64,000 bases of DNA from Rubrivivax sp. (lineage in GTDB: Bacteria > Pseudomonadota > Gammaproteobacteria > Burkholderiales > Burkholderiaceae_C), in assembly GCA_019635285.1 (NCBI GenBank), contig JAHBZS010000014.1:36628-100627 (forward strand), written 5' to 3'. The translations under genes and the position numbers were made by a program. The notes under the pieces are model-generated. The model saw only the letters and a program-made list of their open reading frames with translations, did no database searches and was not told the DNA's origin. How positions within the stretch are numbered: the first letter of the stretch is position 1; each line of letters starts with the position of its first letter. Shown piece after piece: positions 32,281 to 59,909 of this stretch.

Positions 32281-32297
32281 CTCTCCAGGAGGCCGCC

Positions 32298-33637: not shown

Positions 33638-34108
33638 GTGGCCAAGCGCTTGCTCTCGCTGCAGGTCAACGGCCGCGAGCACACCCTCGCCGCGGCCGAC
33701 GGCGCGCTGCTGATCGAGGTGCTGCGCGACGCGCTGCAGCTCACCGGCACCAAGCAGGGCTGCGACGGTGGCGAATGCGGCGCCTGCACCGTGCTGGTCG
33801 ACGACCGGCCGCGGCTGGCGTGCTCGACGCTGGCCGCGCAGGTCGAGGGCAGGCGCATCGAGACGGTCGAAGGCCTGGCGAAGCACGGCCGGCTGTCGCC
33901 GGTGCAGCAGGCGTTCCACGACAAGCTGGGCGCACAGTGCGGCTTCTGCACGCCGGGCATGGTGATGGCGTCCGAAGGCCTGCTGCGGCGCAACCCGCAG
34001 CCGACCGTCGACGAGATCAAGACCGCGTTGGGCGGCAACCTGTGCCGCTGCACCGGCTACGTGAAGATCGTCGAATCGGTGCAAGCCGCCGCGGAGGCCG
34101 CGCGATGA
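33638..34108 (+). CDS. hcrC: 4-hydroxybenzoyl-CoA reductase gamma subunit ([2Fe-2S])
   Basis: A 156-residue xanthine-oxidase-family small subunit beginning at GTG. The plant-type cluster is [15 protein letters not shown] plus a fourth Cys, and the second [2Fe-2S] cluster is formed by CGFCTPGM and CRCTGY. These pass electrons from the beta subunit to the molybdenum site. It is followed with a 4-base overlap by the alpha subunit, giving the order hcrCAB. Confidence 0.93.
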
Positions 34109-36441
34109 GCCTTCGCCTGCCCCGCGCCGGCCGCATCGGCGTGCGCACGCCGCTGATCGACGGCATCGACAAGGTCACCGGCCGCGCGAAGTACACGGCC
34201 GACATCGCGGCACATGGTGCGCTGGTCGGGCGCATCCTGCGCAGCCCGCATCCGCACGCGAAGATCGTCTCGATCGACACGCGTGCCGCCGAGGCGCTCG
34301 AAGGCGTGCACGCGGTGTGCACCGGCGACGACACCCCCGTGCCCTTCGGCGTGCTGCCGATCGCCGAGAACGAATATCCGCTGGCGCGCGCCAAGGTGCG
34401 CTACCGCGGCGACCCGGTGGCCGCGGTGGCGGCGATCGACGAAGCCACCGCGGAACGCGCGCTGGCGCTGATCGACGTGCAGTACGAGGTGCTGCCGGCG
34501 TACTTCACGGCCAAGGCGGCGATGAAGGCCGGCGCGGCGGCGATCCACGACGACAAGCCGAACAACATCCTGCGCGAGGTGCATGCCGAGTTCGGCGATT
34601 CGGCCGCCGGCTTCACCGGTGCCGATCTGGTGCGCGAGAAGACCTTCAGCTTCGCCGAGGTCAACCACGCGCACATGGAGCCGAACGCGACGCTGGCCGA
34701 ATACGACCCCGAGCGCGACGGCGTGACGCTGCACACGACGACGCAGGTGCCGTACTACGTGCACCTGAAGGTCGCTGCCTGCCTGCAGATCACCGAGGCG
34801 CAGGTGCGCGTGATCAAGCCCTTCCTCGGCGGCGGCTTCGGCGCGCGCACCGAGTGCCTGCACTTCGAGATCATCGCCGCGCTGCTGGCGCGCAAGGCGC
34901 GCGGCACGGTGCGCCTGCTGCAGACGCGCGAGGAGACCTTCATCGCGCACCGCGGCCGGCCGTGGACGCAGGTGAAGATGAAGATCGGCCTCAAGCGCGA
35001 CGGCCGCATCACCGCGCTCGCGCTGGAGGCGACACAGGCCGGCGGCGCCTATGCCGGCTACGGGATCATCACGATCCTCTACACCGGGGCGCTGATGCAC
35101 GGCATCTACGACATCCCGGCCATCAAGCACGACGCCTGGCGCGTCTACACCAACCTGCCGCCGTGCGGCGCGCAGCGCGGCCATGGAACGGTCGATACGC
35201 GCGCCGCCTTCGAGGCGCTGCTCACCGACATGGCGGCCGAACTCGGTCTCGACGCTTTTGCCGTGCGGCAGAAGAACCTGCTGCCGCAGATCCCGTACCG
35301 CACGATGTACGCGCAGAACGTGCTCAGCTACGGCCTGCCCGACTGCCTGGAGAAAGTGAAGGCGGCGTCGGGCTGGGAGGAGCGCAAGGGGCGTCTGCCC
35401 AAGGGCCGCGGCCTCGGGCTGGCGTGCTCGCACTTCGTCTCGGGCACCTCGACGCCCAAGCACTGGACCGGCGAGCCGCACGCCGTGGTGCAGTTGCGGC
35501 TGGACTTCGACGGCAGCGTGACGCTGTTCACCGGCGCCGCCGACATCGGCCAGGGCTCGAACACCATGGCCGCGCAGTGCGCCGCCGAGGTGCTGCAGGC
35601 CGCGCTGCCGCGCATCCGCGTCGTCTCGGCCGACAGCGCGGTCACGCCCAAGGACAACGGCAGCTACTCATCGCGCGTGACCTTCATGGTCGGCCGCGCG
35701 ACGATCGCCGCGGCGACCGAGCTGAAGACGCTGCTGGTCAAGGCGGCCGCCGGCCGGTTGGAGGCGTCGGAAGCCGACATCGAGCTGCGCGACGAGAGCT
35801 TCTTCATCCGCGGCACCGACCGCGGCCTGAACTGGATCGACACCGTGCGCGCGGCGATGGTCGACAGCGGCGCGGTCACGGTCAAGGGCACCTACACCTG
35901 CCCGATCGAGTTCCAGGGCGACAAGAAGATCCGCGGCAGCGCGATCGGCGCGACGATGGGCTTCTGCTATGCGGCGCAGGTGGTCGAGGCCTCGGTCGAC
36001 GAGCTGAGCGGCAAGGTCAGCGCGCACAAGGTGTGGGTCGCCGTCGACGTCGGCCGTGCGCTGAACCCGCTGGTGGTCGAGGGCCAGACGCAGGGCGGCG
36101 TGTGGATGGGCATGGGCCAGGCGCTGTGCGAGCAGACCGCGTACGACGACGGCCGCATGCTGCACGGCAACCTGCTCGACTACCGCGTGCCGACGATCGC
36201 CGAGAGCCCGGACATCGAGGTCATCATCGTCGAGAGCATCGACCCGAACGGGCCCTTCGGCGCGAAGGAGGCGTCCGAAGGCATGCTCGCCGGCTTCCTG
36301 CCTGCCGTGCGCGAGGCGGTGCAGGAAGCCGTCGGCGTGCGCTGCGACGAGTTTCCGCTGAGCCCCGAGCGCATCGCCGAGCTGCTGGACAAGCGCGACG
36401 CGGCGCAGAAGGCCGCGGCCCGCGCGAAGGAGCCCGCATGA
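34105..36441 (+). CDS. hcrA: 4-hydroxybenzoyl-CoA reductase alpha subunit (molybdenum)
   Basis: A 778-residue xanthine-oxidase-family large subunit, close to the known length of Thauera HcrA. Recognisable are the substrate-channel motif [37 protein letters not shown] (Mo cofactor) and [11 protein letters not shown] with the C-terminal Glu expected at the active site. The enzyme removes the para-hydroxyl group of 4-hydroxybenzoyl-CoA reductively to yield benzoyl-CoA, running in the opposite direction from other members of the family. The diagnostic partner is the beta subunit with its extra cluster. Confidence 0.93.
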
Positions 36442-37412
36442 ACGCGCTCCATGAAGTGCGCATGCTGCGCCCAGTCCACATCGACGACGCGGTGCGCGCG
36501 CTGGCCGAAGACGGCGCACAGCCGCTGGCCGGCGGCACCGATCTGCTGCCGAACCTGCGCCGCGGCATCGGCGCGCCGCGCGCGCTGGTCGACCTGACGG
36601 CGGTGGCCGCGCTCGATGCCGTCGCCGTGCGCTCCGACGGCAGCTTGCGCGTCGGCGCCACCGCAACGCTGGCCGCACTGGCCGACCACGTCGCTCTGCA
36701 CGCCGGCTGGCCGGCGCTGGCCAAGGCGGCCGGCCTCGTCGCCGGCGCGACGCACCGCGAGGCCGCGACGCTGGGCGGCAACCTGTGCCAGGACACGCGC
36801 TGCATGTTCTACAACCAGAGCGAATGGTGGCGCGCCGGCAACGGCTATTGCCTCAAGTACCGCGGCGACAAATGCCACGTCGTCGTCAAGAGCGACCGCT
36901 GCTACGCGACCTATCACGGCGACGTCGCGCCGGCGCTGATCGCGCTGGACGCCAGCGCCGAGATCGTCGGCCCCGGCGGCGCACGCACGCTGCCGCTGGC
37001 GGCGCTGTTCGTCGAGGACGGCAAGCGCCGCCTGACGCTGGCGCCGGGCGAATGGATCACCGCCGTCGTCGTGCCGCCGACCGCCGGCTGGCGCGCCGAC
37101 TATGCGAAGGCGCGGGTGCGCGACGCGGTCGACTTCCCGCTGGCCGGCGCGGCGGTGGCGCTGAAGCGCGACGGCGAGCGGCTGGCCGGGCTGCGCGTGG
37201 CCATCACCGGCACCAACTCGGCGCCGCGGGTCGTGCCCACCGACGCGTTGCTCGGCGGCCCGTGGGACGCCGCGTCCGCGCAGGCGCTGGCCAAGGCGGT
37301 GCAGACGACGAGCAACGTGCTGGCGACCAGCGTCGCGACGGTCAGGTACCGCCGCCGCATGGCGCAGGCGCTGGTGTGCCGGCTCGTCGACGAACTGTGG
37401 GCCGGGGGCTGA
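36438..37412 (+). CDS. hcrB: 4-hydroxybenzoyl-CoA reductase beta subunit (FAD, extra [4Fe-4S])
   Basis: A 324-residue FAD subunit coupled to hcrA by ATGA. FAD contacts are [15 protein letters not shown] and [18 protein letters not shown]. Between residues 122 and 155 lies the insert unique to 4-hydroxybenzoyl-CoA reductases: Cys122, Cys138, Cys146 and Cys155, the very positions that ligate the additional [4Fe-4S] cluster in the Thauera enzyme. This excludes the gene being an ordinary CO dehydrogenase or xanthine dehydrogenase medium subunit. The cluster lets low-potential ferredoxin electrons enter. Confidence 0.95.
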
Positions 37413-37416
37413 GGCG

Positions 37417-39543
37417 ATGATGCGTTGCCCCAAGTGCCGCCAGCCGCTGGCCGAGCAGGACCCGGGGCCGTACCTCTGCTGCGCCGCGGCGCCGGCGCAG
37501 TGGCGCTGCACGCGCTGCGGCCAGCTCAGCGAAGGCTTCGCGTTCCCCTACGGCGCCTGCCCGCGCTGCAGCGGCCGCCTCGAACTGCGCGACGCCGCAC
37601 CCCCCGGCGGCGGTGGCGCGACCGCGACCCTGGAGGCGGTGCGCACCGCGTTCGAGATCGAGCTCGGCGGGCGTGCCTTCTACCAGTGCGCCGCGGTCGA
37701 CTGTGGCGACGCCGAGCTGCGCGCGCTGTTCAGCCGCTTCGCCGCGATGGAAGGCGAGCACATGGAGACGCTGTCGCGGCGCTATCACCTCGACGTGCCC
37801 GCGCCGTCGGCGGCGTTCCGCACCGCCACCGCCGCGGTCCATGCCGGCGCGGCGCCGCCGCAGGATGCCGCCGATCTGTTCGCCCTGGCGATCGCGCTCG
37901 AACAGCGCGCGGCCAGGGTGTTCGGCGAACGCGCTGCGGCGCTGCCGCCCGGCACCGCCGAACGCCGCCTGTACGACGAGCTTGCCGCCGAGGAGCGCGA
38001 GCACGCGCTGCTGCTCGGCCTGGAGTACGCGCGCTGGCGCAGGCGCCTGCCGGCCGGGCCGGCGGTTGCCCGCGAGGCGGGCGTCAACGCCGCCGAGCTG
38101 CTGCTCGCCGGCCATGCCGACGACGCGCCCGCCATCGAATGCGGCGACGAACGCCTCACCTACGGCCAGCTGCGCGACCGCGTCGCGCGGGCCGCCGCGG
38201 TCTGGCATGCACGCGGCCTGCAACCCGGCGACCGCGTCGCGGTCAAGTTGCCCGACGGCATCGACTGGGTGGTGTGCTGGCTCGGCACGATCTGGGCCGG
38301 TGGTGTCGCGGTCGGCGTCAACCCGCAGGTTCCGGCAGCGGAGTGGCAGTACATGCTCGACGAGGCCGGCTTCAACGTCATCGTCGCCGAGAGTGCCGAC
38401 GACACGCCGGCGCCGTGGCATCAGCGTGTCATCACCTTGGCCGAGGGCCGCCATGCCGTCGCCGCCGCCGCGCCGGTACCGCCGATGCCGCTCACCGACG
38501 ACAGCCCGGCGTTCTGGGTGCATTCGTCGGGCACCTCGGGCCGGCCCAAGGCGGTCGTGCACGCGCAGCGCTGCGTGCGCGAGGTCGGCCGCATCTCGGC
38601 CGAGCGCATCGGCATGCGCGCCGGCGATCGGCTGTTCTCCAGTTCGCGGCTGTTCTTCGTCTATCCGCTGGCCAACCTGCTGCTGGCCGGCCTGCGCAAC
38701 GGTGCCACGCTGATCCTCGATCCGGCGTGGCCGACCGCAGCGTCGGTCGCGCAGCGCGTCGCCGCGTCGCGGCCCGACCTGCTGTTCAGCGTGCCGTCGC
38801 TGTACCGCAATCTGCTGCACGAGGGCTTCGCGCCGGGCCTCGCGCAGGCCGGCGTGCGCCTGTGCGTATCGGCCGGCGAGGCGCTGCCGGCGACGCTGCG
38901 CCAGCACTGGCGCGAGGCCAGCGGCTTGCCGATGCTCGACGGCTATGGCGCGTCCGAGGTGCTGGTGCTGGTGCTGACCGCGCGCGACGGCGACGACGGG
39001 CTGTGGCCGTCGCCCGGCGCCGGCATCGAGCCGCTGGACCCGCAGGCCGCTGCGGCCGGCGAGCCGACGCGGCTGCTGGTGCGCAGCCCGATGCTGGCAT
39101 TGGGCTATCTGGACCGTCCGGCCGCGATGGCCGAGAGCTTCCGCGACGGCCGCTTCTGCCCGGCCGACCTGTTCGTGCGCACGGCCGGCGGCGCCTGGCG
39201 CTTCGCCGGGCGCGAGGACGGGCTGGTCAAGATCAAGGGACGCTGGGTCAACCTGCCCGAGCTCGAGGAGCGGCTCGGCGCGCGCTTGGCCGGCCTGCAC
39301 GAGGCCGCCGCGGCATGCGTGCCCGACGCCGACGGCGTCGAATCGGTGGTCTTCTTCTTCGCCGCCGCGGCACATGACGAACCGGCGCTGCGCGCGGCAC
39401 TGGCCGAGCGCATCGGCGCGCTGCCGCATTACCAGCGGCCCGCGCGGCTGGAGCGCGTCGACGCGTTGCCGCGCACGCCCTCCGGCAAGCTGCTGCGCCG
39501 CCGCCTGCGCGAGCGTTCGTTCGATGCGGCGCCTCTGCGATGA
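37417..39543 (+). CDS. Zinc-ribbon / rubrerythrin-like / aryl-CoA ligase fusion, putative 4-hydroxybenzoate-CoA ligase
   Basis: A 708-residue three-part protein in one uninterrupted frame. Residues 1-55 hold Cys4/7, 21/22, 31/34 and 48/51, a zinc-ribbon or rubredoxin-like segment. Residues 73-205 are a ferritin-like four-helix domain with a full di-iron set: Glu80 or 82, Glu112-x2-His115, Glu162 and Glu193-x2-His196. Residues ~220-705 are an adenylating ligase with HSSGTSGRPKAVVHA, DGYGASEVLVL, FAGREDGLVKIKGRWVN and the catalytic Lys in RTPSGKLLRRRL, resembling benzoate-type CoA ligases. Position right after hcrCAB suggests 4-hydroxybenzoate as substrate. I know of no described enzyme with this fusion. 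Confidence 0.85.
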   Translation: MMRCPKCRQPLAEQDPGPYLCCAAAPAQWRCTRCGQLSEGFAFPYGACPRCSGRLELRDAAPPGGGGATATLEAVRTAFEIELGGRAFYQCAAVDCGDAELRALFSRFAAMEGEHMETLSRRYHLDVPAPSAAFRTATAAVHAGAAPPQDAADLFALAIALEQRAARVFGERAAALPPGTAERRLYDELAAEEREHALLLGLEYARWRRRLPAGPAVAREAGVNAAELLLAGHADDAPAIECGDERLTYGQLRDRVARAAAVWHARGLQPGDRVAVKLPDGIDWVVCWLGTIWAGGVAVGVNPQVPAAEWQYMLDEAGFNVIVAESADDTPAPWHQRVITLAEGRHAVAAAAPVPPMPLTDDSPAFWVHSSGTSGRPKAVVHAQRCVREVGRISAERIGMRAGDRLFSSSRLFFVYPLANLLLAGLRNGATLILDPAWPTAASVAQRVAASRPDLLFSVPSLYRNLLHEGFAPGLAQAGVRLCVSAGEALPATLRQHWREASGLPMLDGYGASEVLVLVLTARDGDDGLWPSPGAGIEPLDPQAAAAGEPTRLLVRSPMLALGYLDRPAAMAESFRDGRFCPADLFVRTAGGAWRFAGREDGLVKIKGRWVNLPELEERLGARLAGLHEAAAACVPDADGVESVVFFFAAAAHDEPALRAALAERIGALPHYQRPARLERVDALPRTPSGKLLRRRLRERSFDAAPLR

Positions 39544-39674
39544 GTGCGACGCCGGTCGAGGCCCGCACCGGCAGCGCGCCGGTCAGCGCGATCAACCCCG
39601 TGCTGCGCCCGGGCCCGCTGCGGCGGGCGGTGCCAAGCGCGCAGCCTGAGGCAACGAAAGGACACTGCACATGA
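39540..39674 (+). CDS. Small coupled ORF, 44 residues, unknown
   Basis: An ATG overlapping the ligase stop (ATGA) opens a 44-codon frame that ends by overlapping the ATG of the DUF2249 gene (ATGA again). The product is Pro-, Arg- and Ala-rich with a single Cys near the end and no recognisable fold or signal. Such exact overlap at both ends favours real translation, at least as a coupling device. Chance cannot be excluded in GC-rich DNA. Confidence 0.35.
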   Translation: MSATPVEARTGSAPVSAINPVLRPGPLRRAVPSAQPEATKGHCT

Positions 39675-40009
39675 AGCGCCTGCAACGCGCCGGCGACGCG
39701 CCCGAGCCATCGGGCGGCCCGGCGGCCATGGCCGAGTCCACACCGTCCGAGGCCTGCGCCGGATGCTGGCGCGAGGCCGACGGCACGCATCTGGACGTGC
39801 GTGGCCTGTCGCCGCCGCAGCCGCTGGTGCGCATCCTGCGCGTGCTGCGTACTTTGCCGCGCGATGCGCTGCTCATCGTGCATCACGATCGCGACCCGCT
39901 GATGCTGTACGGCGAGCTGGCGCAGATCGGCTGGGGCGCCGAACGCGTGGCGGGCGAGCCCGGCGAGTTCCGGCTGCGCCTCGCCGCGATCGAGCCCGGC
40001 AAGGGCTGA
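39671..40009 (+). CDS. DUF2249 domain protein
   Basis: A 112-residue protein. The C-terminal ~75 residues match DUF2249: LDVRGLSPPQPLVRILRVLRTLPRDALLIVHHDRDPLMLYGELAQIGW, a TusA-like alpha/beta fold. The N-terminal ~38 residues are a variable tail including CAGC. DUF2249 proteins are often found with hemerythrins, NnrS-like membrane proteins and nitric-oxide or denitrification genes, as in the genes following here. Exact function unknown. An internal ATG at codon 20 (MAEST) could also be the start. Confidence 0.8.
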   Translation: MKRLQRAGDAPEPSGGPAAMAESTPSEACAGCWREADGTHLDVRGLSPPQPLVRILRVLRTLPRDALLIVHHDRDPLMLYGELAQIGWGAERVAGEPGEFRLRLAAIEPGKG

Positions 40010-40016
40010 AGCCACG

Positions 40017-41381
40017 GTGAGCGGCGAGCCCGCCCCGCACGGCGCCAAGCCGGCGCGCCCAAAACTCGGCGGCACCTTCCTCGGCGGCGCGAAGAGCCGG
40101 CTGCTGCCGGCCTCGCTGGTGTTCCGCTTCTTCGGCGCCGCGGTGGTGTTCCACGCGCTCGCCTGGGCCGCGCTGCTCGGCGGCGCGGCGCAGTGGCCGC
40201 TGTGGCGGCGCGGCCTGGGTTGGCCGCTGGCCGCGCTGCATCTGGTCACGCTCGGCACGCTGCTGTGCAGCGCGATCGGCGCGAGCCTGCAGCTGCTGCC
40301 GGTGGCCACGCGCCAGCCGGTGCGCTCACCGCGGCTGGCGGCGTGGCTGTGGTGGCTGTACGTGCCCGGCGTGGCCACGCTCGCGCTCGGCATGGGGCTG
40401 GCGCGGCCGGCCTGGCTGGCCGCCGGTGCGAGCGCGGTGCTGGCGGCGCTGGCGCTGTGGGCGGTGCTGCTGGGCTTCAACCTGCGCGGCGCGCGTGGCA
40501 TGCCGGGCGTCGTGCTGCACGGCTGGGGCGCGCTGGCGGCGCTGGCCTTGCTCGGCGTCAGCGCGGCGGCGCTGGTCGCGCTGTGGCTGGGGCGGCCGTG
40601 GCTCGACGCCGGTGCCGCGCGCGGCCTGCACCTGGTCAGCGGCGCATTCGGCGTGATGGGCCTGCTGGCCTTCGGCCTGGCCTACATCCTGCTGCCGATG
40701 TTCGCGCTGGCCGGCGTGCCCGACGAGCGGCAGCAACTCGCCTCCGGCGCCGCCGCGCTGACCGCGCTAGCCGCGGCGGCGCTGGCCGCGCTGGCGCCGG
40801 TCTACGGCTTCGCGGCGCAGCCGCTGCGCCTCGGCGCGCTGTTCGCCGGCGCCCTGGCCTACGCGCTGCATCTGCGGCTGATGCGCCGCGTGCTCGCCAC
40901 CGGCATGCGCCGTGACCTCGGACGCGGACTGCGCCTGATGCAGCTCGGCTGGGCGGGCCTCGGCGTGGCGCTCGCGCTCGGGCTGGCGCTCGTGCTCGGC
41001 GCGCCGGCCGACGCGCTGGGCCGGCTGTTCGGCATCGCGCTGATCGGCGGCTGGCTGCTCAGCTTCCTGCTCGGCGTGCTGCAGCGCATCCTGCCGTTCC
41101 TGGCGTCGATGCATGCCGCACAGGGCCAACGGCGGTCGCCGACGCCGTCGTCGCTGACCTTGGAGCGCGCGCTGGCGTGGCACTTCCGCGCGCACCTCGC
41201 GGCGCTGGCGCTGCTGGCCGCCGCCGCGCTCACCGACCAGGCGCTGCTCGCCGCGGCGGCCGGTGCGGCCGGGCTGATGGGCGCGCTGGCCTTCGCGGCA
41301 TTCTTCGTGGTGCTGATGCGCCGCCTGGCACAGGCCACCGCCGGCGCCGCCGCGCCCGAACGCAGCCGCGCACAGGCTTGA
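40017..41381 (+). CDS. Polytopic membrane protein, heme-copper oxidase / NnrS-like
   Basis: A 454-residue protein starting at GTG, with about 12 membrane helices. Helix-embedded histidines occur in VVFHALAW, LAALHLVTLGTLLCSAIG, GVVLHGWGAL and ARGLHLVSGAFGVMGLLAFGLAYILLPMF, a pattern reminiscent of NnrS or oxidase subunit I-like proteins that bind heme and copper. It lacks the full set of oxidase ligands that I would want for a catalytic subunit. Coming after a DUF2249 protein and before a hemerythrin, it probably belongs to an oxygen- or NO-response module. Confidence 0.6.
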   Translation: MSGEPAPHGAKPARPKLGGTFLGGAKSRLLPASLVFRFFGAAVVFHALAWAALLGGAAQWPLWRRGLGWPLAALHLVTLGTLLCSAIGASLQLLPVATRQPVRSPRLAAWLWWLYVPGVATLALGMGLARPAWLAAGASAVLAALALWAVLLGFNLRGARGMPGVVLHGWGALAALALLGVSAAALVALWLGRPWLDAGAARGLHLVSGAFGVMGLLAFGLAYILLPMFALAGVPDERQQLASGAAALTALAAAALAALAPVYGFAAQPLRLGALFAGALAYALHLRLMRRVLATGMRRDLGRGLRLMQLGWAGLGVALALGLALVLGAPADALGRLFGIALIGGWLLSFLLGVLQRILPFLASMHAAQGQRRSPTPSSLTLERALAWHFRAHLAALALLAAAALTDQALLAAAAGAAGLMGALAFAAFFVVLMRRLAQATAGAAAPERSRAQA

Positions 41382-41419
41382 TCTGCTGCAAGGAACGGGC
41401 GGGGCGAGGTCGCTATTCT
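41378..41419 (+). promoter_or_regulatory. FNR-like box and -10 of the hemerythrin operon
   Basis: TTGAT-CTGC-TGCAA at 41378-41391 matches 8 of 10 FNR consensus positions; its first base is within the last codons of the preceding gene. TATTCT at 41414-41419 is a 4/6 match to a -10. The box centre lies 29.5 bp before the -10, giving the class II arrangement. The transcript should start near 41426, 56 bases before the hemerythrin ATG. Confidence 0.55.
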
Positions 41420-41420
41420 G

Positions 41421-41432
41421 GTATTCGAATAC
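41421..41432. promoter_or_regulatory. Shared dyad operator, copy A (perfect palindrome)
   Basis: GTATTCGAATAC is a perfect 12-bp palindrome followed by GTGTTTTG. It begins two bases after the -10 and spans the predicted start of transcription, an ideal position for repression. Related copies are at 23008-23019 and 52663-52674. Confidence 0.6.
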
Positions 41433-41481
41433 GTGTTTTGCCGGCGCGCCGCGCGCCAGGCCCCACCACCAGGACATCCGC

Positions 41482-41958
41482 ATGAGCTTCTCGCGCCAGG
41501 TCTCGCAGGCGCTCGACGACGAGCATCGCAGCCACCTCGACCTGCTCGGCCGCGCCGAGCGGGCGTTCGCCCGCGCCGACGACCCCGAGGTGCCGGCGCT
41601 GGCCGCCCGGCTGGTGCGCCAGCTGGAACACGATATCGGCCGCCACTTCGGCTTCGAGGAGGCGCAGTTGTTCCCGCGCATGGCCGACGCCGGCGACGGC
41701 GACCTGGCGGCGCTGCTGGCCGAGGAGCACGCGTCGATCCGCGACGTCGCCGCCGAACTGCTGCCGCTGGCCCGCGCCGCGGCGGCCGGCGCGCTGCCGG
41801 CCGCCGACGCCGCCACGCTGCGGCGGCTGGTGCTGGAGATCGTCGAGCGCCAGGTCGCGCACATCCAGAAGGAGACGATGGCGCTGCTGCCGCTGCTGGA
41901 CGACCTGCTCGACGACGACACCGACCGCGAACTTGCGTTCGACTACGTGGCCGGCTGA
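41482..41958 (+). CDS. Hemerythrin HHE-domain protein
   Basis: A 158-residue four-helix protein. Putative di-iron ligands are His15/His18, His50, His55 with Glu59 in HFGFEEAQLF, His83 in LAEEHASIRD and a later His in VAHIQKETMALLP. Such bacterial hemerythrins bind O2 or NO and may protect or report on oxygen-labile enzymes, which fits the neighbouring benzoyl-CoA reductase. It is the first gene after a promoter carrying both the FNR-like box and the dyad. Confidence 0.9.
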   Translation: MSFSRQVSQALDDEHRSHLDLLGRAERAFARADDPEVPALAARLVRQLEHDIGRHFGFEEAQLFPRMADAGDGDLAALLAEEHASIRDVAAELLPLARAAAAGALPAADAATLRRLVLEIVERQVAHIQKETMALLPLLDDLLDDDTDRELAFDYVAG

Positions 41959-41988
41959 GCAGCTGCCGCATCGCTTGAAGGAGCCGCC

Positions 41989-42996
41989 ATGACGCCGACA
42001 CCCGCCCCCGCCCTGCCCACGATCCGGGCGCTCGCCCCGGCCGACCTGTCCGCCGTGGTGGCGATCGACGCCGCCGGCGAAGGCCGCACGCGCCGCGACT
42101 ACATCGAGCGCCGGCTGCGCGCGGCGCAGCGCGAGCCCGCGCTGCACGCGCAGTTTGCCGCCAGCGACGGTTCGGGCGTCGTCGGCTTCATGCTCGCGCG
42201 CGTGCTGGCCGGCGAGTTCGGCCGGCACCAGCGCACGCTGCGGCTCGAAGCGATGGGCGTGCGCAGCGACCGGCGCGGCCAGGGCACCGGCCGCGCGCTG
42301 TTCGACGCGCTGGCCGCCTGGGGCGCGCGCCACGGCTGCGCGTCGGTCCGCACCACCGCGAGCTGGCAGGACACCGACTTGCTGGCCTGGTTCGACCGGC
42401 TGGGCTTCGAGCTGGCGCCCGAGGTCATCGTGCACAGCCGCGTCGACGGCGCCGCCGAGCGCGACGACGCCGAGCTGCAGATCGAGCCGGCGCGCGAGAT
42501 CGACTACGGCCGGCCCGAGGGCAACGACCACGAACGGCTGGAGCGCGACCGCGCCGACGTGCGCTCGATGACGCCGGCCGACCTGGACGCGATCGTGCGC
42601 ATCGACCGCACCATCACCGGCCGCGACCGGCGCGACTACATGGCGGCGCGGCTGGCCGAGGCGATGGACGACACCAGCGTGCGCGTGTCGCTGACCGCGC
42701 GCTGCGACGGCACCGTGGTCGGCTCGCTGATGGCGCGCGCCGACCTCGGCGACTTCGGCCGCGCCGAGCCGGTGGCGGTGCTCGACACCATCGGCGTCGA
42801 CCCGGACTACGCGCGCCGCGGCGTCGGCGGCGCGCTCGTCTCGCAGCTGTTCGCCAACCTCGGCGCGCTGCGCGTCGAGCGTGTCGAGACGGTGGCCGCG
42901 CTGCGCGACCCGGCGTTGCTGGGCTTCCTGTTCGCGGCCGGCTTCGCGCCGGCGCAACGGCTATCCTTCACGCGGAGCCTGAAGACGGCAGCATGA
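41989..42996 (+). CDS. Tandem double-GNAT acetyltransferase
   Basis: A 335-residue protein made of two GNAT domains (about 10-150 and 190-330) that resemble each other: DYIERRL...VVGFMLARVLAGEFGR versus DYMAARL...VVGSLMARADLGDFGR. Acetyl-CoA loops are RSDRRGQGTGRALFD and DPDYARRGVGGALVS, so both sites look intact. The repeated block also resembles the GNAT at 22458-22973, suggesting duplication within one family. GNATs in R. palustris acetylate aromatic CoA ligases (Pat) or aminobenzoates (BadL); which applies here cannot be read from sequence. Confidence 0.8.
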   Translation: MTPTPAPALPTIRALAPADLSAVVAIDAAGEGRTRRDYIERRLRAAQREPALHAQFAASDGSGVVGFMLARVLAGEFGRHQRTLRLEAMGVRSDRRGQGTGRALFDALAAWGARHGCASVRTTASWQDTDLLAWFDRLGFELAPEVIVHSRVDGAAERDDAELQIEPAREIDYGRPEGNDHERLERDRADVRSMTPADLDAIVRIDRTITGRDRRDYMAARLAEAMDDTSVRVSLTARCDGTVVGSLMARADLGDFGRAEPVAVLDTIGVDPDYARRGVGGALVSQLFANLGALRVERVETVAALRDPALLGFLFAAGFAPAQRLSFTRSLKTAA

Positions 42997-43316
42997 ACCC
43001 GACCCCTATCGACGAAGACCTGGTGCGCGACGCGCTGCGCCAGGTGCTGGACCCCGAGGCCGGCATGAACATCGTCGACCTGGGCCTGGTGTACGGCATC
43101 CAGGTGACGGAGGCCGACGGCGTGCAGTTGCAGATCACGATGACCAGCGCCGCCTGCCCCATGGCCGAGATGATCCTCGACGAGGCGCAGGCCGCGGTCG
43201 AGGCGGTGCTGCCGCCCGCCACGCCGGTGGTGGTCGAGTTGGTGTGGGACCCGCCCTGGACGCCGGAGCGCATGAGCGGCTTCGCGCGCGAGCACTTCGG
43301 CTGGGCGCCGCGGTGA
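42993..43316 (+). CDS. DUF59/MIP18-family metal-sulfur cluster assembly protein
   Basis: A 107-residue DUF59 domain with DLVRDALRQVLDPEAGMNIVDLGLVYGI, the reactive Cys in TSAACPMAEMI, and VELVWDPPWTPERMS. These proteins (SufT, PaaD-like) help mature Fe-S clusters. It is coupled by ATGA to the double-GNAT gene and by GTGA to the next membrane protein. A role in supplying or repairing clusters of the many Fe-S enzymes around it is plausible. Confidence 0.9.
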   Translation: MNPTPIDEDLVRDALRQVLDPEAGMNIVDLGLVYGIQVTEADGVQLQITMTSAACPMAEMILDEAQAAVEAVLPPATPVVVELVWDPPWTPERMSGFAREHFGWAPR

Positions 43317-44410
43317 CCGCGCCGGCGACGCGCGTGCGCCGCGTCGCCTGGCAGCGGCTGCCGCTGCTGCTGCTGGGCTTCGTCGCGCTGTTCGCCGGGC
43401 TGGGTGCGGGTTTGGCGCGGCTCGGCTGGCAACTGCCGGAAGCGGTGGCCGGCGCGGCGGCGCTGCACGGCCCGCTGATGGTGTGCGGCTTCTTCGGCGT
43501 GGTCATCTCGCTGGAGCGGGCGGTGGCCATCGGCCGCGCCTGGGCCTATGGCGCGCCGCTGTTGGCGGGCTTGAGCAGCGCCGCGGCGCTGCACGGCGCG
43601 GCATCGCTGACGCACTGGCTGGCCTTCGGCGCCAGCGCCGTGCTGGTCGTCGCGTCGCTGGACGTGCTGCGCCGCCAGCGCACCGGCTTCAACGCCGTGA
43701 TCGCGCTGGCCGCCGGCTGCTGGCTGGCTGGCTGCGTGCGGTGGGCGCTGGGTGCGCAGGTCTACGCCGTGGTCGGCTGGTGGGTCGCCTTCCTGGTGCT
43801 GACCATCGCCGGCGAGCGGCTGGAGTTGTCGCGCTTCATGCCACCGTCGCGCGCCGCGGCGCGGGTTTTCGCCGGCATCGTGGCGGGTGTGTTGGTGTCG
43901 CTGGCGGCATGGCCCGCCGCCTGGGCGCCACGGCTGTACGGGCTGGCGCTGCTGGCGCTGGCGCTGTGGCTGCTGCGCCAGGACATCGCGCGGCGCACCG
44001 TGCGCCAGAGCGGCCTCACGCGCTTCATCGCCGTGTGCTTGCTCGCCGGCTATTTCTGGCTCGGCGTCGGCGGGGTGCTGATCGCGCTGCACGGACTGGC
44101 ACCGGGCAGCGCGGCCTACGACGCCGCGCTGCACGTGCTGCTGCTCGGCTTCGTGTTCTCGATGGTCTTCGGCCACGCGCCGATCATCTTCCCGGCGGTG
44201 CTGCGCGTGAACCTCGCCTACCACCCGGTCTTCTACGCGCCGCTGGCGCTGCTGCATGCGTCGCTGCTGCTGCGCGTGGCCGGCGACGCCGGCGCGGGGC
44301 ATGACTGGACGCGCTGGGGCGGGCTGCTGTCGGCGCTGGCGCTGCTGGCGTTCATCGCCAACACCGCGACGGCGGTGCTGCGCGGGCGGCACGCCGCCGC
44401 GCGCCGATGA
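43313..44410 (+). CDS. NnrS-like polytopic membrane protein
   Basis: A 365-residue protein starting at GTG with about ten membrane helices. LHGPLMVCGFFGVVISLERAVA near the start and LHVLLLGFVFSMVFGHAPIIFPAVL near the end carry histidines in the arrangement typical of NnrS-type heme/copper membrane proteins, which relieve nitrosative stress in denitrifiers. The cluster partners (hemerythrin, DUF2249, DUF59) support a stress-protection role. It ends 18 bases from the convergent ferredoxin gene. Confidence 0.65.
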   Translation: MTAPATRVRRVAWQRLPLLLLGFVALFAGLGAGLARLGWQLPEAVAGAAALHGPLMVCGFFGVVISLERAVAIGRAWAYGAPLLAGLSSAAALHGAASLTHWLAFGASAVLVVASLDVLRRQRTGFNAVIALAAGCWLAGCVRWALGAQVYAVVGWWVAFLVLTIAGERLELSRFMPPSRAAARVFAGIVAGVLVSLAAWPAAWAPRLYGLALLALALWLLRQDIARRTVRQSGLTRFIAVCLLAGYFWLGVGGVLIALHGLAPGSAAYDAALHVLLLGFVFSMVFGHAPIIFPAVLRVNLAYHPVFYAPLALLHASLLLRVAGDAGAGHDWTRWGGLLSALALLAFIANTATAVLRGRHAAARR

Positions 44411-44427: not shown

Positions 44428-44673
44428 TCAGCCGTGCAGCGCCTCGTACTTGGCCTGCAGTTCCTCGGGTGATTCGACGAAGTCCGGGTGCTGCACGATG
44501 CAGTCGGCCGGGCACACCAGCTTGCACTGCGGCTCGTCCTCGGCGCCGACGCATTCGGTGCAGCGCAGCGGGTCGATCACGTAGATCGGGTCGCCGACGG
44601 CGATGGCTTCGTTCGGGCACACCGGCTTGCAGGCGTCGCAGGCGGTGCAGTTGTCGTCGATCAGCAGGGCCAT
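44428..44673 (-). CDS. fdx: 2[4Fe-4S] ferredoxin of benzoyl-CoA reductase
   Basis: An 81-residue ferredoxin with CTACDACKPVCP and CTECVGAEDEPQCKLVCP, two [4Fe-4S] clusters of which the second has the long Cys spacing of the Chromatium/YfhL type, plus a C-terminal helix. In Thauera aromatica such a ferredoxin is encoded in the bcr operon and feeds electrons to benzoyl-CoA reductase. Here it is the last gene of the had-bcr operon, so it likely shuttles electrons from KorAB to BcrABCD and perhaps HcrABC. Confidence 0.92.
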   Translation of the reverse strand: MALLIDDNCTACDACKPVCPNEAIAVGDPIYVIDPLRCTECVGAEDEPQCKLVCPADCIVQHPDFVESPEELQAKYEALHG

Positions 44674-44689
44674 TTATGCACTCCGTGTG

Positions 44690-45523
44690 TCAGGCGGCCA
44701 CGGCCGCGTTCTCCAGTTCCGCGAGCCGCGCGTGGCGGTACGCGCCCCACAGCGCCGCGCCGATGGCGCCGGCGTAGATCGAATCGACGTGCGAGCGCGC
44801 GCTGACGTTGACCTTCTCGTTGACCATTTCCTCCTGGATCGCCGCCAGCAGGCCGGTGTCCAGCGCCAGCCCGCCGGTGAGCAGCGCGACGCCGCTCTTC
44901 ACCCCCGTGACCTTCAGCAGCTTGACGATGCGCGAGGCCATCGACAGGTGGATGCCCTTCAGGATGTCGGGCGTGGCGATGCCGCGGCTGACCATGTTGA
45001 TGACATCGGTCTCGGCCAGCACCGCGCAGATCGAGCTGACCTTCTCCGGATCCTGGCTGCTGCACGACAGCGGGCCGATCTCCTCGACCGCGACGCCCAG
45101 GTAGCGCGCGATGTTCTCCAGGAACTGGCCCGAGCCGCTGGCGCACTGGCTGGTCATCTTGTAGCTCAGCACCTTGCCGCGCTGGTCGACGCTGATGGCG
45201 CGGCCGTTCAGCGCGCCGATGTCGACCACCGCGCGCGCCTCGGGGTCGAGGAACACGCCGCCGCGCGCGTGCGTGGTCATCGAATAGAAGTGGCCGGTGG
45301 CGAACTTGACGTTCTCGCCCTCGCCGGTGGTGGCGGTGTAGTCGACCGCATCTTTCGGCAAGCCCGCGTCCGCGAGCACGCCGTCGTAGCCCTCCTGCGC
45401 CAGCGTCATCGGGTCGCGGCGGCGGATGCGCTCGCAGCGCTTGGCCAGCCACTGCTCGCCGCGGAACAGCACGGTCTTGACGGCGCCGGAGCCGATGTCG
45501 ATGCCGACGGTGGTGATGGTCAT
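44690..45523 (-). CDS. bcrD: BcrD, benzoyl-CoA reductase delta subunit
   Basis: A 277-residue member of the BadF/BadG/BcrA/BcrD ATPase family, close to the 282 residues of Thauera BcrD. The phosphate loop is GIDIGSGAVKTVLF; cysteines in SQCASGSGQFLE and SSICAVLAETD ligate the [4Fe-4S] cluster shared between the A and D subunits. LLTGGLALDTGLL is the adenosine motif. With BcrA it hydrolyses ATP to lower the potential of electrons passed to BcrBC. Its ATG overlaps the end of a 30-codon frame. Confidence 0.95.
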   Translation of the reverse strand: MTITTVGIDIGSGAVKTVLFRGEQWLAKRCERIRRRDPMTLAQEGYDGVLADAGLPKDAVDYTATTGEGENVKFATGHFYSMTTHARGGVFLDPEARAVVDIGALNGRAISVDQRGKVLSYKMTSQCASGSGQFLENIARYLGVAVEEIGPLSCSSQDPEKVSSICAVLAETDVINMVSRGIATPDILKGIHLSMASRIVKLLKVTGVKSGVALLTGGLALDTGLLAAIQEEMVNEKVNVSARSHVDSIYAGAIGAALWGAYRHARLAELENAAVAA

Positions 45524-45612
45524 GATTGCCCCTCGTCCGTTGAGTACACCGGCCGATCCCCCAAGGGGATGCGGACCGGCTTGAGAGCGGCCCGGCGCTC
45601 GGTCCTGCTCAT
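45520..45612 (-). CDS. Micro-ORF of 30 residues between bcrA and bcrD
   Basis: An ATG overlapping the bcrA stop (ATGA) begins a 30-codon frame whose own stop overlaps the bcrD ATG (ATGA). The peptide is basic at the start ([17 protein letters not shown]) and acidic at the end ([12 protein letters not shown]), with no membrane segment. It fills the whole gap between the two ATPase genes, which adjoin directly or closely in the Thauera operon. It may encode a genuine small protein or serve only to keep ribosomes coupled. Confidence 0.45.
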
Positions 45613-46949
45613 GCCCGTGCCTCCGCAGTCTTGCCCTCTTCCACCACCGCGCGGTACGCGAAGGTCGCGCCGCCCAGCGCGCCGGTGTAGATCGAATCGG
45701 GGTTGATGTTCAGCGTCAACTTGCCGTAGTTCTCCTCGACCAGTTCGACCAGCGCCTTGACCGCGGCTTCGTTCTTGGCGACGCCGCCGGTGAAGGTGAA
45801 CTCGTCGCGGATGCCACCCGAGCGCGCCAGGATGCTCATCGCGCGCAGGATGATCGCGCGGTGCAGCCCGGCCATGATGTCCTCGCGCTTGTCGCCGAGC
45901 GCGAGCCGGTCGCGCAGTTCGGCGCCGGCGAACACGGTGCAGGTCGAGTTGATGCGGATCGTCTTCGTGCTCTGCATCGCCAGCGGCCCCAGCTCGTGCA
46001 GCCCCATGTTCATCTCGTCGGCGATGTAGCCCAGGTAGCGCCCGCAGCCGGCCGCGCAGCGGTCGTTCATCTGGAAGCTCTCGACGATGCCGGCCGGGTC
46101 GACCTGGATCGCCTTGGTGTCCTGCCCGCCGATGTCGAGCACGGTGGCGGTGTTCGGGTACATCACGTGCGCGCCCAGGCCGTGGCACAGGATCTCGCTG
46201 CGGATGTGCTCCTTGCTGAACGGCAGCCGCGCGCGGCCGTAGCCGGTGCCTACCGTGTAGGTTTCCACCATCTCGGTGTCGAGCACGCCCTTGATCGGCG
46301 CCTCGACCGCGGCGCGTTTGCTCTGCGTCTCGGGCAGCGCGGCGAAGCTGCGCTCCAGTGCGGCCAGCAGGTGGCGGCGCATCGAGTCGCCGTAGACGCG
46401 GTTCTCGACCTCGATGATCGAGCGGTCGAACAGGTTGAGCAGGAAGTCGTAGCGCAGCCCCATGCTCTTGGCCACTGCCTCGCCCGCGGCCAGGTACTGG
46501 CTGCCGGCGATGTCGCGGAAGAAGTCGCTCTTGCGCTTGGCGCCGGGCGCGAACAGCTCGGGCGCCTCGACCTGCAGCTGCTTGAAGACCACGTCGAGCG
46601 CCTCGCGCACGCCGGCCTGCGCGTCGCCGAAGTTGGTCTTCTCGTGGTTGCGGTGGCAGGTGTCCTCGAGGTCGGCCAGCTGCTCCAGGTACTGCTCGGC
46701 ACGGAAGTCGCGTTCGAGCTGGTTGATGAAGCCGTCCAGCGACCCGTTGAGCGCGCCGCTGCTGCCCAGCGCCTGGCGGAACAGCTGGAAGCGGCCGCTG
46801 AGCAGCGCCTCCTGCTTGGCCACCGCGGCGGCGGTGTCGTAGTTCGAGCGCGAATTGGTGATGCCGCGGCCAAGCACGTTCTGCTGCTCGTCGATGACCA
46901 CCGCCTTGGTGGTCGTCGAGCCGAGGTCGATGCCAATGAAGCAGCGCAT
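45609..46949 (-). CDS. bcrA: BcrA, benzoyl-CoA reductase alpha subunit
   Basis: A 446-residue ATPase subunit similar in length to Thauera BcrA (438). N-terminal phosphate loop [14 protein letters not shown], second-half motifs [13 protein letters not shown], cluster cysteines in [13 protein letters not shown] and [11 protein letters not shown], and the adenosine motif [10 protein letters not shown]. The long insert at residues 60-200 distinguishes it from BcrD and is usual for Thauera/Rhodopseudomonas-type enzymes rather than the Azoarcus Bzd type. It drives two-electron reduction of benzoyl-CoA at the cost of ATP. Confidence 0.96.
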
Positions 46950-46967
46950 GGTGGGTGCTCCTCGCTT

Positions 46968-48338
46968 TCAGTTGGCGGTGATCGGGATGATCGGCGCGCC
47001 GCTCGGGCCCGTCGGCAGCGCGTGGCCGTAGGTGCGCTTCTGCTTGATCATCTGGAAGTAGCTTTCCAGCCGGTTCTTGACGTTGGCGGCCGAGAAGTAG
47101 CGCGGGTCGACCAGGTCGGTCTCGATGAACGCCGCCGGCTTGCCGGTGCGCTTTTCCACCTCGCGCAGCATCAGCAGCTGGCCGGCCGAGAAGCTGTTGC
47201 AGCTCTTGATCGAGTTGATCAGCAGCCCGTCGGCCTGGTACTGCTCCATGTAGTCGCAGATGATCTGGATGCGGCCCGGCAGGCTATGGTTGGTGTAGCA
47301 GCCCAGGCAGTACTCGGCCAGCGATTCGAGCGGGTTCTCCGGGTCGTGGCGGAAGCCGTAGTCGTAGAGCCCGCCGACCTTGGCGTAGGTCGACGACACG
47401 ACCACCGCGCCTTCCTCGTAGAACATCTTCCAGAAGTCGCGGAAGCTGGTCCAGTTGGGCGGGCCTTCGACGATCAGCCGGTACTTCTCCTCGCCCATGT
47501 CGCCATCGGGCGTGACCGGGCCCTTGCCGAGGCGGATGCGCTCGTCGATCTCGCCGCGCAGCACGCGGTAGAACTCGGTGGCTTCGGCCGTGCCGCGGAA
47601 GGCGGTGAAGATCGGGCCGATGTAGTAGACCGCGCCGAAGTAGCCGTCGATCGGGCTGGGCCGGTTCTTCGCGCTCTGCAGCACCTGCACCAGGTCCTGC
47701 TCGGCCTTGGCCGATTCGCGCATGTACTGGCGCAGCCGGTCGATGTCGAACTTGACGCCGCTGACGCGCTCCAGCGTGGGGATCACCGTCTCCTTCAGCT
47801 GCTTGACCACGTACTCGCGCATGCTCGGCGTGATCTTGCCGTCGGCCTGGTACGGCACGTGCAGCATCACCGTCTCGCAGCCGTACTTGTGGCGCACCAG
47901 CTCGAACCACTTCATGAAGGTGAAGCAGCCGGTGTAGCTGAGCAGCAGGACGTCGGGCCGCGGCAGCGGGTCGCCGGTGGGGCCGACCTCGCCGCCCATC
48001 ATCATGCCGAGGTCGGCCTTGACGTAGGTGCAGACGTCCTCGCTCTGGCCGTCGCGCTCGGCGTCCATGATGAACTTGCCGCTCTTCTTGCGCATGCCGT
48101 TCTGCAGCGCGTTCGTCTCGGGCAGGCTGCGCGCGAAGTCGAAGCACATCAGCAGCTCATTCAGGTTGCCCGGCACGAAGGTCGCCGAGACCTTGCGGTT
48201 GTTGGCGCGCGCGGTGGCCAGCTCCATGTAGTTCTTGTTGATCAGCTCCTTCTGCAGCCACATCGCGTCTTCCTTGACGACCTGCGGCTTGGCGGTGGGC
48301 TTGCCGAGCGGCGTCGGCATCGAGATCGGGGTGTTCAT
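46968..48338 (-). CDS. bcrB: BcrB, benzoyl-CoA reductase beta subunit
   Basis: A 456-residue protein of the 2-hydroxyacyl-CoA dehydratase D-component family, with cysteines in LLSYTGCFTFMKW, YCLGCYTNHSLPGR and SIKSCNSFSAGQLL that can ligate an active-site cluster. Its ATG overlaps the bcrC stop. BcrB and BcrC form the module where benzoyl-CoA binds and the ring is reduced to cyclohexa-1,5-diene-1-carbonyl-CoA. It is followed 18 bases later by bcrA. Confidence 0.96.
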   Translation of the reverse strand: MNTPISMPTPLGKPTAKPQVVKEDAMWLQKELINKNYMELATARANNRKVSATFVPGNLNELLMCFDFARSLPETNALQNGMRKKSGKFIMDAERDGQSEDVCTYVKADLGMMMGGEVGPTGDPLPRPDVLLLSYTGCFTFMKWFELVRHKYGCETVMLHVPYQADGKITPSMREYVVKQLKETVIPTLERVSGVKFDIDRLRQYMRESAKAEQDLVQVLQSAKNRPSPIDGYFGAVYYIGPIFTAFRGTAEATEFYRVLRGEIDERIRLGKGPVTPDGDMGEEKYRLIVEGPPNWTSFRDFWKMFYEEGAVVVSSTYAKVGGLYDYGFRHDPENPLESLAEYCLGCYTNHSLPGRIQIICDYMEQYQADGLLINSIKSCNSFSAGQLLMLREVEKRTGKPAAFIETDLVDPRYFSAANVKNRLESYFQMIKQKRTYGHALPTGPSGAPIIPITAN

Positions 48339-49591
48339 GCAGCGCTCCACAACTTGATCGAATCGGCAAAGGTGCCCGCCTGCTCGCGGATCGGCGCCAT
48401 CTGGCCGGTGTTCTCGGCGTACTTGAACGCGGTATGCGCGACGCCGTGCTGGGCCAGCACGTCCTGCAGCATCGGCCGCTCCAGCAGCGCCGGGTCGCAG
48501 AACGACGGCGCCGCGAAGACCACGCCCTCGGCGCCGCGCGTCTTCACCTGCTTGAGCAGGAACACGCCCTTCTCCTCGCGCTTGGTGTCGTACTTGGCCG
48601 CGGTCGAGGCCGAGCGGTGCAGGAAGGCCTTCGACAGCTCGGCCAGCGGGTCGCCGTCGGCGGGCACCTCGTCGAGCAGCCAGCGGCCGACGAGCATGAA
48701 GTCGTCGTCGACGACGTAGCAGCCGGCCATCTCGATGGACTTGATCAGCGCCAACGGCGGCTGCTCGCAGAAGCTGCCGGTGAGCACGACGCGCGCGTTG
48801 TCGCGCTTGGGCCGCTGCAGCTGCTCGGCCGCGGCCAGGTACTGCCGCACCAGTGCGGTGTGCTCCTCCACCGGCAGCACCATGCCGGCGCGCTGCAGCA
48901 GGTAGACCTCGGAGGTCGGCGCCTGCCACGGCTTGGCGGCACGGTAGGCATAGAGGTCACGCAGCGCCTGCCGGTTGTCGTTATAGGCGGCGATCGATGC
49001 GTTCAGCTCGGCGTCGGTGATCGCTCTGCCGCGCAGCTTGCCCAGGTCGTCGCGGATGTGCTGCATCTCCTGGATGTAGAACTTGCCGCCGACGCCGTCC
49101 TCGTAGTTCTGCGGCACGTCGACGTAGCGCACGTACTTGGTCGGAAACAGGATCTGCCACATGCCCGACAGGTTGCGGATGACGTCGCAGATGCTCGGGA
49201 AGAGCATGCCGTCCAGGCAGTCCAGCCGGCCGGTCAGGCCGAGCTCGATGGTCGAGCGCGGGATGCGGCAGATGTAGCTCTGGTAGTAGGCGTCGCCCTG
49301 GATCACCTCGATCTGGTCGCCGCCGCCGAGGATGCCCACCGGCAGCATGCCGGCCGCATGGATGATCTCGCGCGGCACGTACACCGGCATGTAGCCGATC
49401 GCCTTGCGGCCGGGCGCGCCGTCCTTCCAGGCCTTGACGGCGTTGAAGTGCAGGTCCTCGAACAGCGCCTCGCAGCGCGCAACGATTTTCAGGACTTCGG
49501 GTTGGGGTGCGGACTGCCCGCCCGGCCGCCCGACGGGCAGTTGCGCCCCCTCGGGGGGCAGCGAACGCAGTGAGCTTGGGGGTTGTGTCAT
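48335..49591 (-). CDS. bcrC: BcrC, benzoyl-CoA reductase gamma subunit
   Basis: A 418-residue dehydratase-D-type subunit with YICRIPRSTIELGLTGRLDCLDGMLFPSICDV, LTGSFCEQPPLALIKSIE and FAAPSFCDPALLE. It is about 35 residues longer than Thauera BcrC (384): the first ~30 residues (TQPPSSLRSLPPEGAQLPVG and on) are encoded by a REP-like palindrome and look added. The ATG at 49591 overlaps the dch stop. An internal start near codon 30 would give the normal length but would lose the coupling. Confidence 0.94.
   Translation of the reverse strand: MTQPPSSLRSLPPEGAQLPVGRPGGQSAPQPEVLKIVARCEALFEDLHFNAVKAWKDGAPGRKAIGYMPVYVPREIIHAAGMLPVGILGGGDQIEVIQGDAYYQSYICRIPRSTIELGLTGRLDCLDGMLFPSICDVIRNLSGMWQILFPTKYVRYVDVPQNYEDGVGGKFYIQEMQHIRDDLGKLRGRAITDAELNASIAAYNDNRQALRDLYAYRAAKPWQAPTSEVYLLQRAGMVLPVEEHTALVRQYLAAAEQLQRPKRDNARVVLTGSFCEQPPLALIKSIEMAGCYVVDDDFMLVGRWLLDEVPADGDPLAELSKAFLHRSASTAAKYDTKREEKGVFLLKQVKTRGAEGVVFAAPSFCDPALLERPMLQDVLAQHGVAHTAFKYAENTGQMAPIREQAGTFADSIKLWSAA
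49542..49591 (-). repeat. REP-like palindromic element inside the bcrC N terminus
   Basis: GCGCCCCCTCGGGGGGCA at 49543-49560 followed by GCGAACGCAGTGAGCTTGGG is a palindromic element of a kind that I associate with Burkholderiales genomes, usually intergenic. Here it is in frame and codes for PPSSLRSLPPEGA at the beginning of BcrC. This identification is from memory of such repeats, without a search. Confidence 0.5.
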
Positions 49592-50358: not shown

Positions 50359-50364
50359 CTCGGC

Positions 50365-59898: not shown

Positions 59899-59909
59899 GG
59901 AGCCCTGCG

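Follow-up and report, generated by a model that had tools for sequence, protein, structure and literature searches.

The frame at positions 37417..39543 (+) of the window, the whole stretch of 64,000 nucleotides analysed here, was confirmed by sequence comparison as a genuine single-chain fusion of Cys4 ribbons, a predicted di-iron-type bundle and an aryl-CoA ligase, and judging from the genomes compared this fusion is widespread in Burkholderiales. The frame is uninterrupted over 708 amino acids, and its ATG at 37417 follows the hcrB stop at 37412 after a 4-base gap. Residues 1-57 (37417..37587, +) hold two Cys4 sites, namely ribbon 1 (C4, C7, C21, C22) and the rubredoxin-like ribbon 2 (C31, C34, C48, C51), with CxxC motifs at residues 4, 31, and 48 in addition to C21/C22. 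They are followed by a ferritin-like four-helix bundle (residues 66-209; 37612..38043, +), a linker (residues 210-230; 38044..38106, +) and an aryl-CoA ligase of the ANL class (residues 231-700; 38107..39516, +). A full-chain AlphaFold2 model, built with 51 of the 57 fused copies described below, reached a mean pLDDT of 84.9 and a pTM of 0.76, with low confidence at residues 212-219 of the linker. Together with the Pfam matches, this bears out the earlier note, which had read a Cys-rich segment, a ferritin-fold domain and a ligase in one frame placed four bases behind hcrCAB. A frameshift separating the domains, which that note named as the observation that would speak against it, and an assembly artefact are both ruled out because 57 further copies are fused and because codons 169-277 of the window gene contain no ATG, GTG, or TTG. 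The same lack of start codons rules out a separate ligase made from an internal start. For one genome (G001), the module half and the ligase half were found on two contigs, the ends of which overlap by 26 bases.

The predicted di-iron ligands are E80, E112, H115, E162, E193, and H196 (E112-x2-H115; E193-x2-H196), located where the earlier note had put them. All six fall among the 25 invariant columns of 152 in an alignment of 81 sequences (p about 1e-5 under random placement), and E82 is likewise invariant. All 57 fused copies and all 23 stand-alone modules among the best 80 of 206 relatives retain the six ligands, apart from one fused copy whose E80 would lie past the end of its contig, so that a loss of ligands throughout the homologues, the second outcome held to be damaging, was not seen. 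The set corresponds to the complete six-ligand ferritin/bacterioferritin type. Classical rubrerythrins carry an extra glutamate in helix 3 (E-x2-E), which is absent here (E162-x2-A165, with A165 invariant in the 81 sequences), so that the module lacks this mark of the classical type. Pfam Rubrerythrin (PF02915, cut-off 22.8) scored 21.4 bits on the whole protein and 25.4 bits on the isolated module, and matched all 32 aligned modules at E<=0.01, while RUBY_RBDX reached 12.9 bits on the window protein, below its cut-off of 26.5. An AlphaFold2 model of the module, built with 12 fused and 19 of the 23 stand-alone copies, displayed long helices at residues 67-95, 99-123, 151-174, and 181-209 with a small ribbon before them (mean pLDDT 81.3; residues 1-30 poor). 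In the Foldseek search, 2fzf was the best match (E 1.6e-3, probability 1.00), there being no match at E<=0.001. Sequence similarity to the solved rubrerythrin 1b71 was low (E 2.9). The nearest sequence and fold relatives are rubrerythrin/ferritin-like, and the predicted four-helix bundle with its E..ExxH..E..ExxH pattern is that of this superfamily.

The cysteines of ribbon 2 are present in 53-54 of the 57 fused copies, the misses being truncated or, in L083, out of frame, and those of ribbon 1 in 49-50; L083, with its out-of-frame N-terminus, was counted as having lost the ribbon. Both ribbons are complete in 23 of the 23 stand-alone modules among the best 80 of 206 relatives. With CxxC-x13-CxxC ahead of the bundle, the chain shows the architecture of reverse rubrerythrins, and its spacing of 13 lies inside the 'short-spaced' rubredoxin-like range, given as 10-14 in the available part of PMC5114695. 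Clostridioides difficile revRbr1/2, as described in the accessible sections of PMC7482061, likewise combine an N-terminal rubredoxin-like domain with a C-terminal di-iron four-helix bundle, an order that we read here from sequence and model. Unlike them, the fused protein has an extra ribbon and a ligase, and no helix-3 glutamate.

A more specific assignment, overlooked in the earlier note, comes from NCBIfam. NF009413 (PRK12775), a 'putative trifunctional ... ferritin domain' protein family, covers residues 3-209 via profile positions 798-1000 with 239 bits, and this match equates the N-terminal module with the last ~200 residues, at the C-terminal end, of the 'trifunctional' protein. The gene upstream of many fused copies supplies positions 3-761 of the same profile (1346 bits); with its DHODB-type Fe-S, Fer4_20, and pyridine-nucleotide domains, it can be annotated as an NfnAB-like NAD(P)H/ferredoxin flavoprotein. 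Among the best 80 of 206 relatives, such a gene precedes all 23 stand-alone modules, and in nine of these loci (L108, L113, L116-L119, L121, L125, and L126) the order is NfnAB-like flavoprotein, module, PFOR. These nine operon-like loci are betaproteobacterial, and a ferredoxin often comes next after PFOR. In two genomes the NfnAB-like gene and the module even form one open frame. From the profile match, the adjacency, and the one-frame cases, the sequences identify the module as a partner domain of an NfnAB-like enzyme that is here joined to a ligase. In PRK12775, the flavoprotein is the module's neighbour or part of the same chain; the window gene instead fuses the module to a CoA ligase, and no such flavoprotein was detected in the window genome.

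Upstream of the 57 fused copies among the best 80 of 206 relatives, the first gene that could be recognised is NfnAB-like in 23 (counting L055, with 1070 bases between both matches), hcrB in 18, and a contig edge or another neighbour in 16; twelve of the 23 NfnAB-adjacent copies have hcr genes upstream, too. We searched 38 other fusion genomes of unstated completeness, to which 40 of the 56 fused loci led, for the partner gene. An NfnAB-like gene with both halves was found in 22 (one in two pieces), several of the PFOR-operon type, while 16 yielded no full gene: twelve, including the R. alkalitolerans isolate, had no match at E<=1e-150 and four had only a GltD-type paralogue. The window genome (94.5% complete) revealed no NfnAB-like gene with both halves, only GltD-type matches of 30-36% identity, and no second module was found in it; since the flavoprotein gene was not found there, its module has only the ligase as a partner. 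All 23 copies next to an NfnAB-like gene have an intact ribbon 1, as against 22 of the 28 without one (Fisher p 0.027, uncorrected for descent, and one of the six losses, L083, may be a frame fault). Mean identity of the di-iron part to stand-alone modules is 0.562 without and 0.592 with the adjacent gene (p 6e-4, likewise uncorrected for descent), and the ligase part shows no difference (p 0.45). All eight long branches of the module tree lack the adjacent gene; pairing on the tree left 8 independent pairs and a non-significant link (median p 0.625). In our reading, ribbon 1 is probably there for the flavoprotein, and the di-iron site has a separate function.

The ligase part matches Pfam AMP-binding with 190.7 bits (cut-off 29.9) and the AMP-binding C-terminal domain with 24.4 bits, just under the cut-off of 24.5. 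Among the best 80 of 206 relatives, S371-G375, E514, D584, and R599 are kept in all 57 fused copies, and the catalytic C-terminal K691 in 54, the other three being truncated; the adenylation motifs and the C-terminal lysine thus predict an ANL class I aryl-CoA ligase. Benzoate-CoA ligases are its nearest solved relatives, and fold and core motifs resemble those of benzoate-type enzymes (BadA 4eat, 2v7b; the 3-hydroxybenzoate ligase HbdA model). It differs from them in staying below the cut-offs of TIGR02262 benzoate-CoA ligase (248 against 375.25 bits) and NF053567 HbdA (287.9 against 1000 bits), and in carrying V517/L518 where BadA has H333/I334, the residues named in the PDB title. The fused gene stands directly behind hcrC, the [2Fe-2S] subunit gene (33638..34108, +; Pfam Fer2_2, named by position and homology), hcrA, encoding the alpha subunit of 4-hydroxybenzoyl-CoA reductase (34105..36441, +; TIGR03194, 1282 bits, cut-off 994.55), and hcrB, for the FAD subunit (36438..37412, +; Pfam FAD_binding_5), and from this adjacency we infer 4-hydroxybenzoate as the putative substrate. 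Genes for hcr lie upstream in 30 of 44 judged copies, a copy being judged if hcr was found or at least 6.5 kb of upstream sequence existed, a choice biased towards positives. Acids other than 4-hydroxybenzoate are possible as substrates, because the 14 copies without hcr include L102, beside an aromatic-type sigma-54 activator and a TRAP transporter, and L064, near cytochromes and a multicopper oxidase.

Searching GTDB species genomes gave 271 matching stretches, 206 of which encode relatives; the best 80, in 79 loci, were analysed, with domain borders that are probably off by some residues in the survey, trees, and identities while the counts are unaffected. The architecture search proposed in the earlier note thereby returned 57 fused copies in 56 loci of 50 assemblies by accession, next to 23 loci with the module alone. 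Isolates with the fusion are Ramlibacter monticola, R. lithotrophicus, and R. alkalitolerans. Labels of 49 of the 56 fused loci are Burkholderiales or a family or genus therein, the others being Proteobacteria, Gammaproteobacteria, Pseudomonadota, uncultured bacterium, and one Anaerolineales. The bin with the last label (L072) is probably mis-binned, as about 98% of the residues of its fused gene are the same as in a copy from an Aquabacterium MAG (L071). Several genomes of the window's genus encode full-length or near-full-length fused homologues among 100 relatives, nine of which align at 61-75% identity, and the module, fused or alone, occurs in 25 of 81 genomes of this genus at E<=1e-30. 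Plasmid-borne spread is unsupported, since none of 1057 plasmid records with a match covers 80% of the query. One locus (L058 3-308) carries a second, partial module fragment at a contig end, in another frame and overlapping the start of the fused gene, which may reflect duplication or an assembly fault; it was excluded from the counts.

Fused modules share a mean identity of 62% (minimum 48%), and dN/dS, obtained for 14 of 15 pairs, ranged from 0.08 to 0.46 in the di-iron part and from 0.08 to 0.39 in the ligase, which argues at the codon level for purifying selection on the di-iron part; the highest module value belongs to the pair R. monticola/R. alkalitolerans (0.46, ligase 0.22). The linker evolves fast. 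N224 is found within it in all 57 fused copies, preceded by Met in 10, and in the ligase-only relative L043, whose ATG overlaps the stop of hcrB, the protein begins with MNGAELLL, so the linker motif xNAAELLL (V223-N224-A-A in the window protein) appears to be a surviving relic of the old ligase start. L043 and two further ligase-only relatives (L047, L134) stand behind hcrB at the position of the fused gene, while L042 has lost the module but kept a recognisable linker; the ligase therefore needs no module. Since the three ligase-only rows are nested among fused rows in one ligase tree, which included an outgroup row in the wrong strand (L022), and basal in another tree built without that row, their lack of a module may be original or due to later loss. 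On groups picked after tree inspection, AU tests rejected a single clade of all four ligase-only rows (p 9e-4), and likewise a branch that would separate the fused rows from all others (p 9e-5). In the module tree, all fused modules and three stand-alone ones (L107, L110, L120) form one supported group, which makes a single origin of the fusion likely, though not proven, and because these three sit inside it, re-separation from the ligase may occur, if rarely in our sample. The fusion probably arose by read-through into a ligase gene from a module gene that followed the flavoprotein gene.

As to function, the reading that we prefer, at a little under an even chance, is that the ligase feeding 4-hydroxybenzoyl-CoA reductase (HCR) carries, as a tethered head, a reverse-rubrerythrin-like module that reduces O2/H2O2 and so shields the oxygen-labile HCR/BCR route. 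The ligase would make 4-hydroxybenzoyl-CoA for HCR, the module would receive electrons via its Cys4 site, and the predicted di-iron site would reduce O2 or H2O2, so that oxidants would be kept away from the start of the HCR/BCR route or from the ferredoxin that supplies it. Where encoded, the NfnAB-like protein is the likely electron donor; in the window genome, where its gene was not found, another donor would have to serve. Reverse rubrerythrins are presented in the available text of PMC7482061 as NADH-linked O2 and H2O2 reductases working with a reductase partner, and their domain order is the same; PMC9304861, in the part available, predicts for another system a rubrerythrin that is fed by a bifurcating enzyme. 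Protection of oxygen-labile enzymes, the second suggestion of the earlier note, thus agrees with the kind of module, as far as the accessible sections of PMC7482061 go, and with NfnAB-like flavoprotein, HCR, and PFOR as neighbours. Retention of the six ligands despite the divergence of the fused modules, purifying selection on the di-iron part, hcr upstream of most judged copies, and the hemerythrin, DUF2249, or NnrS-like genes of many fused loci also speak for this reading. Aryl-CoA ligases are described as oxygen-insensitive in the portion of PMC8388817 at hand; the ligase itself would therefore need no shield, and the beneficiary would be HCR/BCR or the electron supply. The absent helix-3 glutamate, the genomes without NfnAB, the copies without hcr, and the module-free ligases count against a tethered reductase, and so does the fact that no result explains the advantage of tethering over a separate protein.

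Its nearest rival, unlikely but deserving attention, treats the module as in essence an NfnAB-like subunit, an adaptor for docking and electron transfer that ties ligase, flavoprotein, and HCR into one low-potential-electron assembly, with O2/peroxide chemistry being secondary. The unbroken adjacency of stand-alone modules to the flavoprotein gene, the nine PFOR loci, and the two one-frame genomes fit it, as do the occasional loss of ribbon 1, the drift of the di-iron part but not of the ligase, and the long branches, all seen where no NfnAB gene adjoins. However, the module persists with intact iron ligands in genomes in which no full NfnAB-like gene was found, and the association tests ignore descent, fade in the eight pairs, and include the possible frame fault of L083. 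Slightly less probable again is an ordinary oxidant-handling module fused by read-through, the tethering itself being functionless: loss of the module from L042, its absence from L043, L047, and L134, the fast linker, and relaxation in the Ramlibacter monticola/alkalitolerans pair would all be expected, but the fusion has been kept in 57 copies and separation (L107, L110, L120) is rare in the sample. An oxygenase, with the di-iron site oxidising the aromatic acid or the CoA ester made from it, is very improbable. COQ7, a di-iron hydroxylase, weakly matched 6 of 32 modules and some fused copies lie away from hcr, yet the closest relatives in sequence and fold are of the rubrerythrin/ferritin kind, and hcr, NfnAB, and PFOR are the genes usually found around it.

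The boldest reading is that of a gate, the main suggestion of the earlier note: O2 or peroxide would oxidise the di-iron or the Cys4 site and thereby turn the ligase off, so that 4-hydroxybenzoate is committed only under anoxic conditions. The module is physically joined to the committing enzyme and its metal site is invariant; against this, the linker is variable in length and sequence and poorly modelled at residues 212-219, so that no conserved hinge is evident, and ligase-only relatives work, or at least persist, at the same position. L042 also lacks the module. No result favours gating, and we consider it improbable. Equally improbable is its extension to a redox-controlled metabolon with the fused chain as organising subunit, the reverse-rubrerythrin-like head of which would dock on an NfnAB-like flavoprotein and HCR while the oxidation state of the di-iron/Cys4 sites decides on commitment of 4-hydroxybenzoate to the anaerobic route by the ligase; if true, this would be a CoA ligase sensing oxygen directly. 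Our preference stays with the tethered oxidant-reducing module.

No description of a fusion between a rubrerythrin module and a CoA ligase was found in the literature searched, mostly without subscription papers, in line with the earlier note, which knew of no such enzyme; nor was a function for the ferritin part of PRK12775 seen described there. Fused Nfn patterns have been reported, with no mention of ferritin in the available part of PMC6405883. In the predicted Rub-Bfu complexes, too, a rubrerythrin would be fed by an NADH/ferredoxin flavoenzyme, but their core is BfuBC rather than NfnAB-like and no ligase appears in the accessible text (PMC9304861). The fusion is a second setting for the PRK12775 ferritin part besides flavoprotein/PFOR operons, and its retention in many related bacteria hints at a new way to protect or wire an oxygen-sensitive pathway. 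How facultative anaerobes at the oxic/anoxic edge run oxygen-labile aromatic reductases is the question addressed, and it can be tested directly, in cultured Ramlibacter too, with a conserved chain that couples a predicted oxidant-reducing di-iron module to the ligase of the committing step.

The window around the fused gene is an anaerobic aromatic-degradation cluster. Upstream of hcr (28050-33635), genes for a Mo-oxidoreductase and its partners are joined by one for a PaaK-like ligase, which scored under the cut-off of its model. Between the hcr and bcr segments (39671..44410, +), DUF2249, hemerythrin-like, GNAT, and SufT-like genes occur with two that we take to be NnrS-like, for which no family match was returned; hemerythrin, DUF2249, or NnrS-like genes were found in 25 of the 56 fused loci among the best 80 of 206 relatives. 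On the minus strand follow a ferredoxin gene (Fer4) and bcrD, bcrA, bcrB, bcrC, dch, and oah (44428..51483, -), the six enzymes matching TIGR models above cut-off. Two 2-oxoacid oxidoreductase sets lie at 52833-55474, presumably korAB, and at 56463-60797; the pad and kor names in the window are our assumption, and the sole PadG model match (58723-59898) is below cut-off. Directly after the korB-like gene, a second rubrerythrin-like protein of 180 amino acids is encoded (55471-56013, +; 2oh3 match at 5e-27), relatives of which occur in 18 of 56 fused loci; a paralogue 72% identical to it stands on contig C68 of the window genome ahead of a second RidA-padE-padH-padG set. Two types of hcrA were distinguished in a comparison that included L042, L031, and L038, the window copy being 88% identical to that of L042 but 54-57% to those of five other neighbours, and because the adjoining ligases do not divide along these types, the sequences suggest exchange of hcr genes. 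Many fused copies are followed on their 3' side by genes for two enoyl-CoA hydratases, a BadH-like SDR, a rubrerythrin-like protein, and an acyl-CoA dehydrogenase (e.g., L035 6114-10259).
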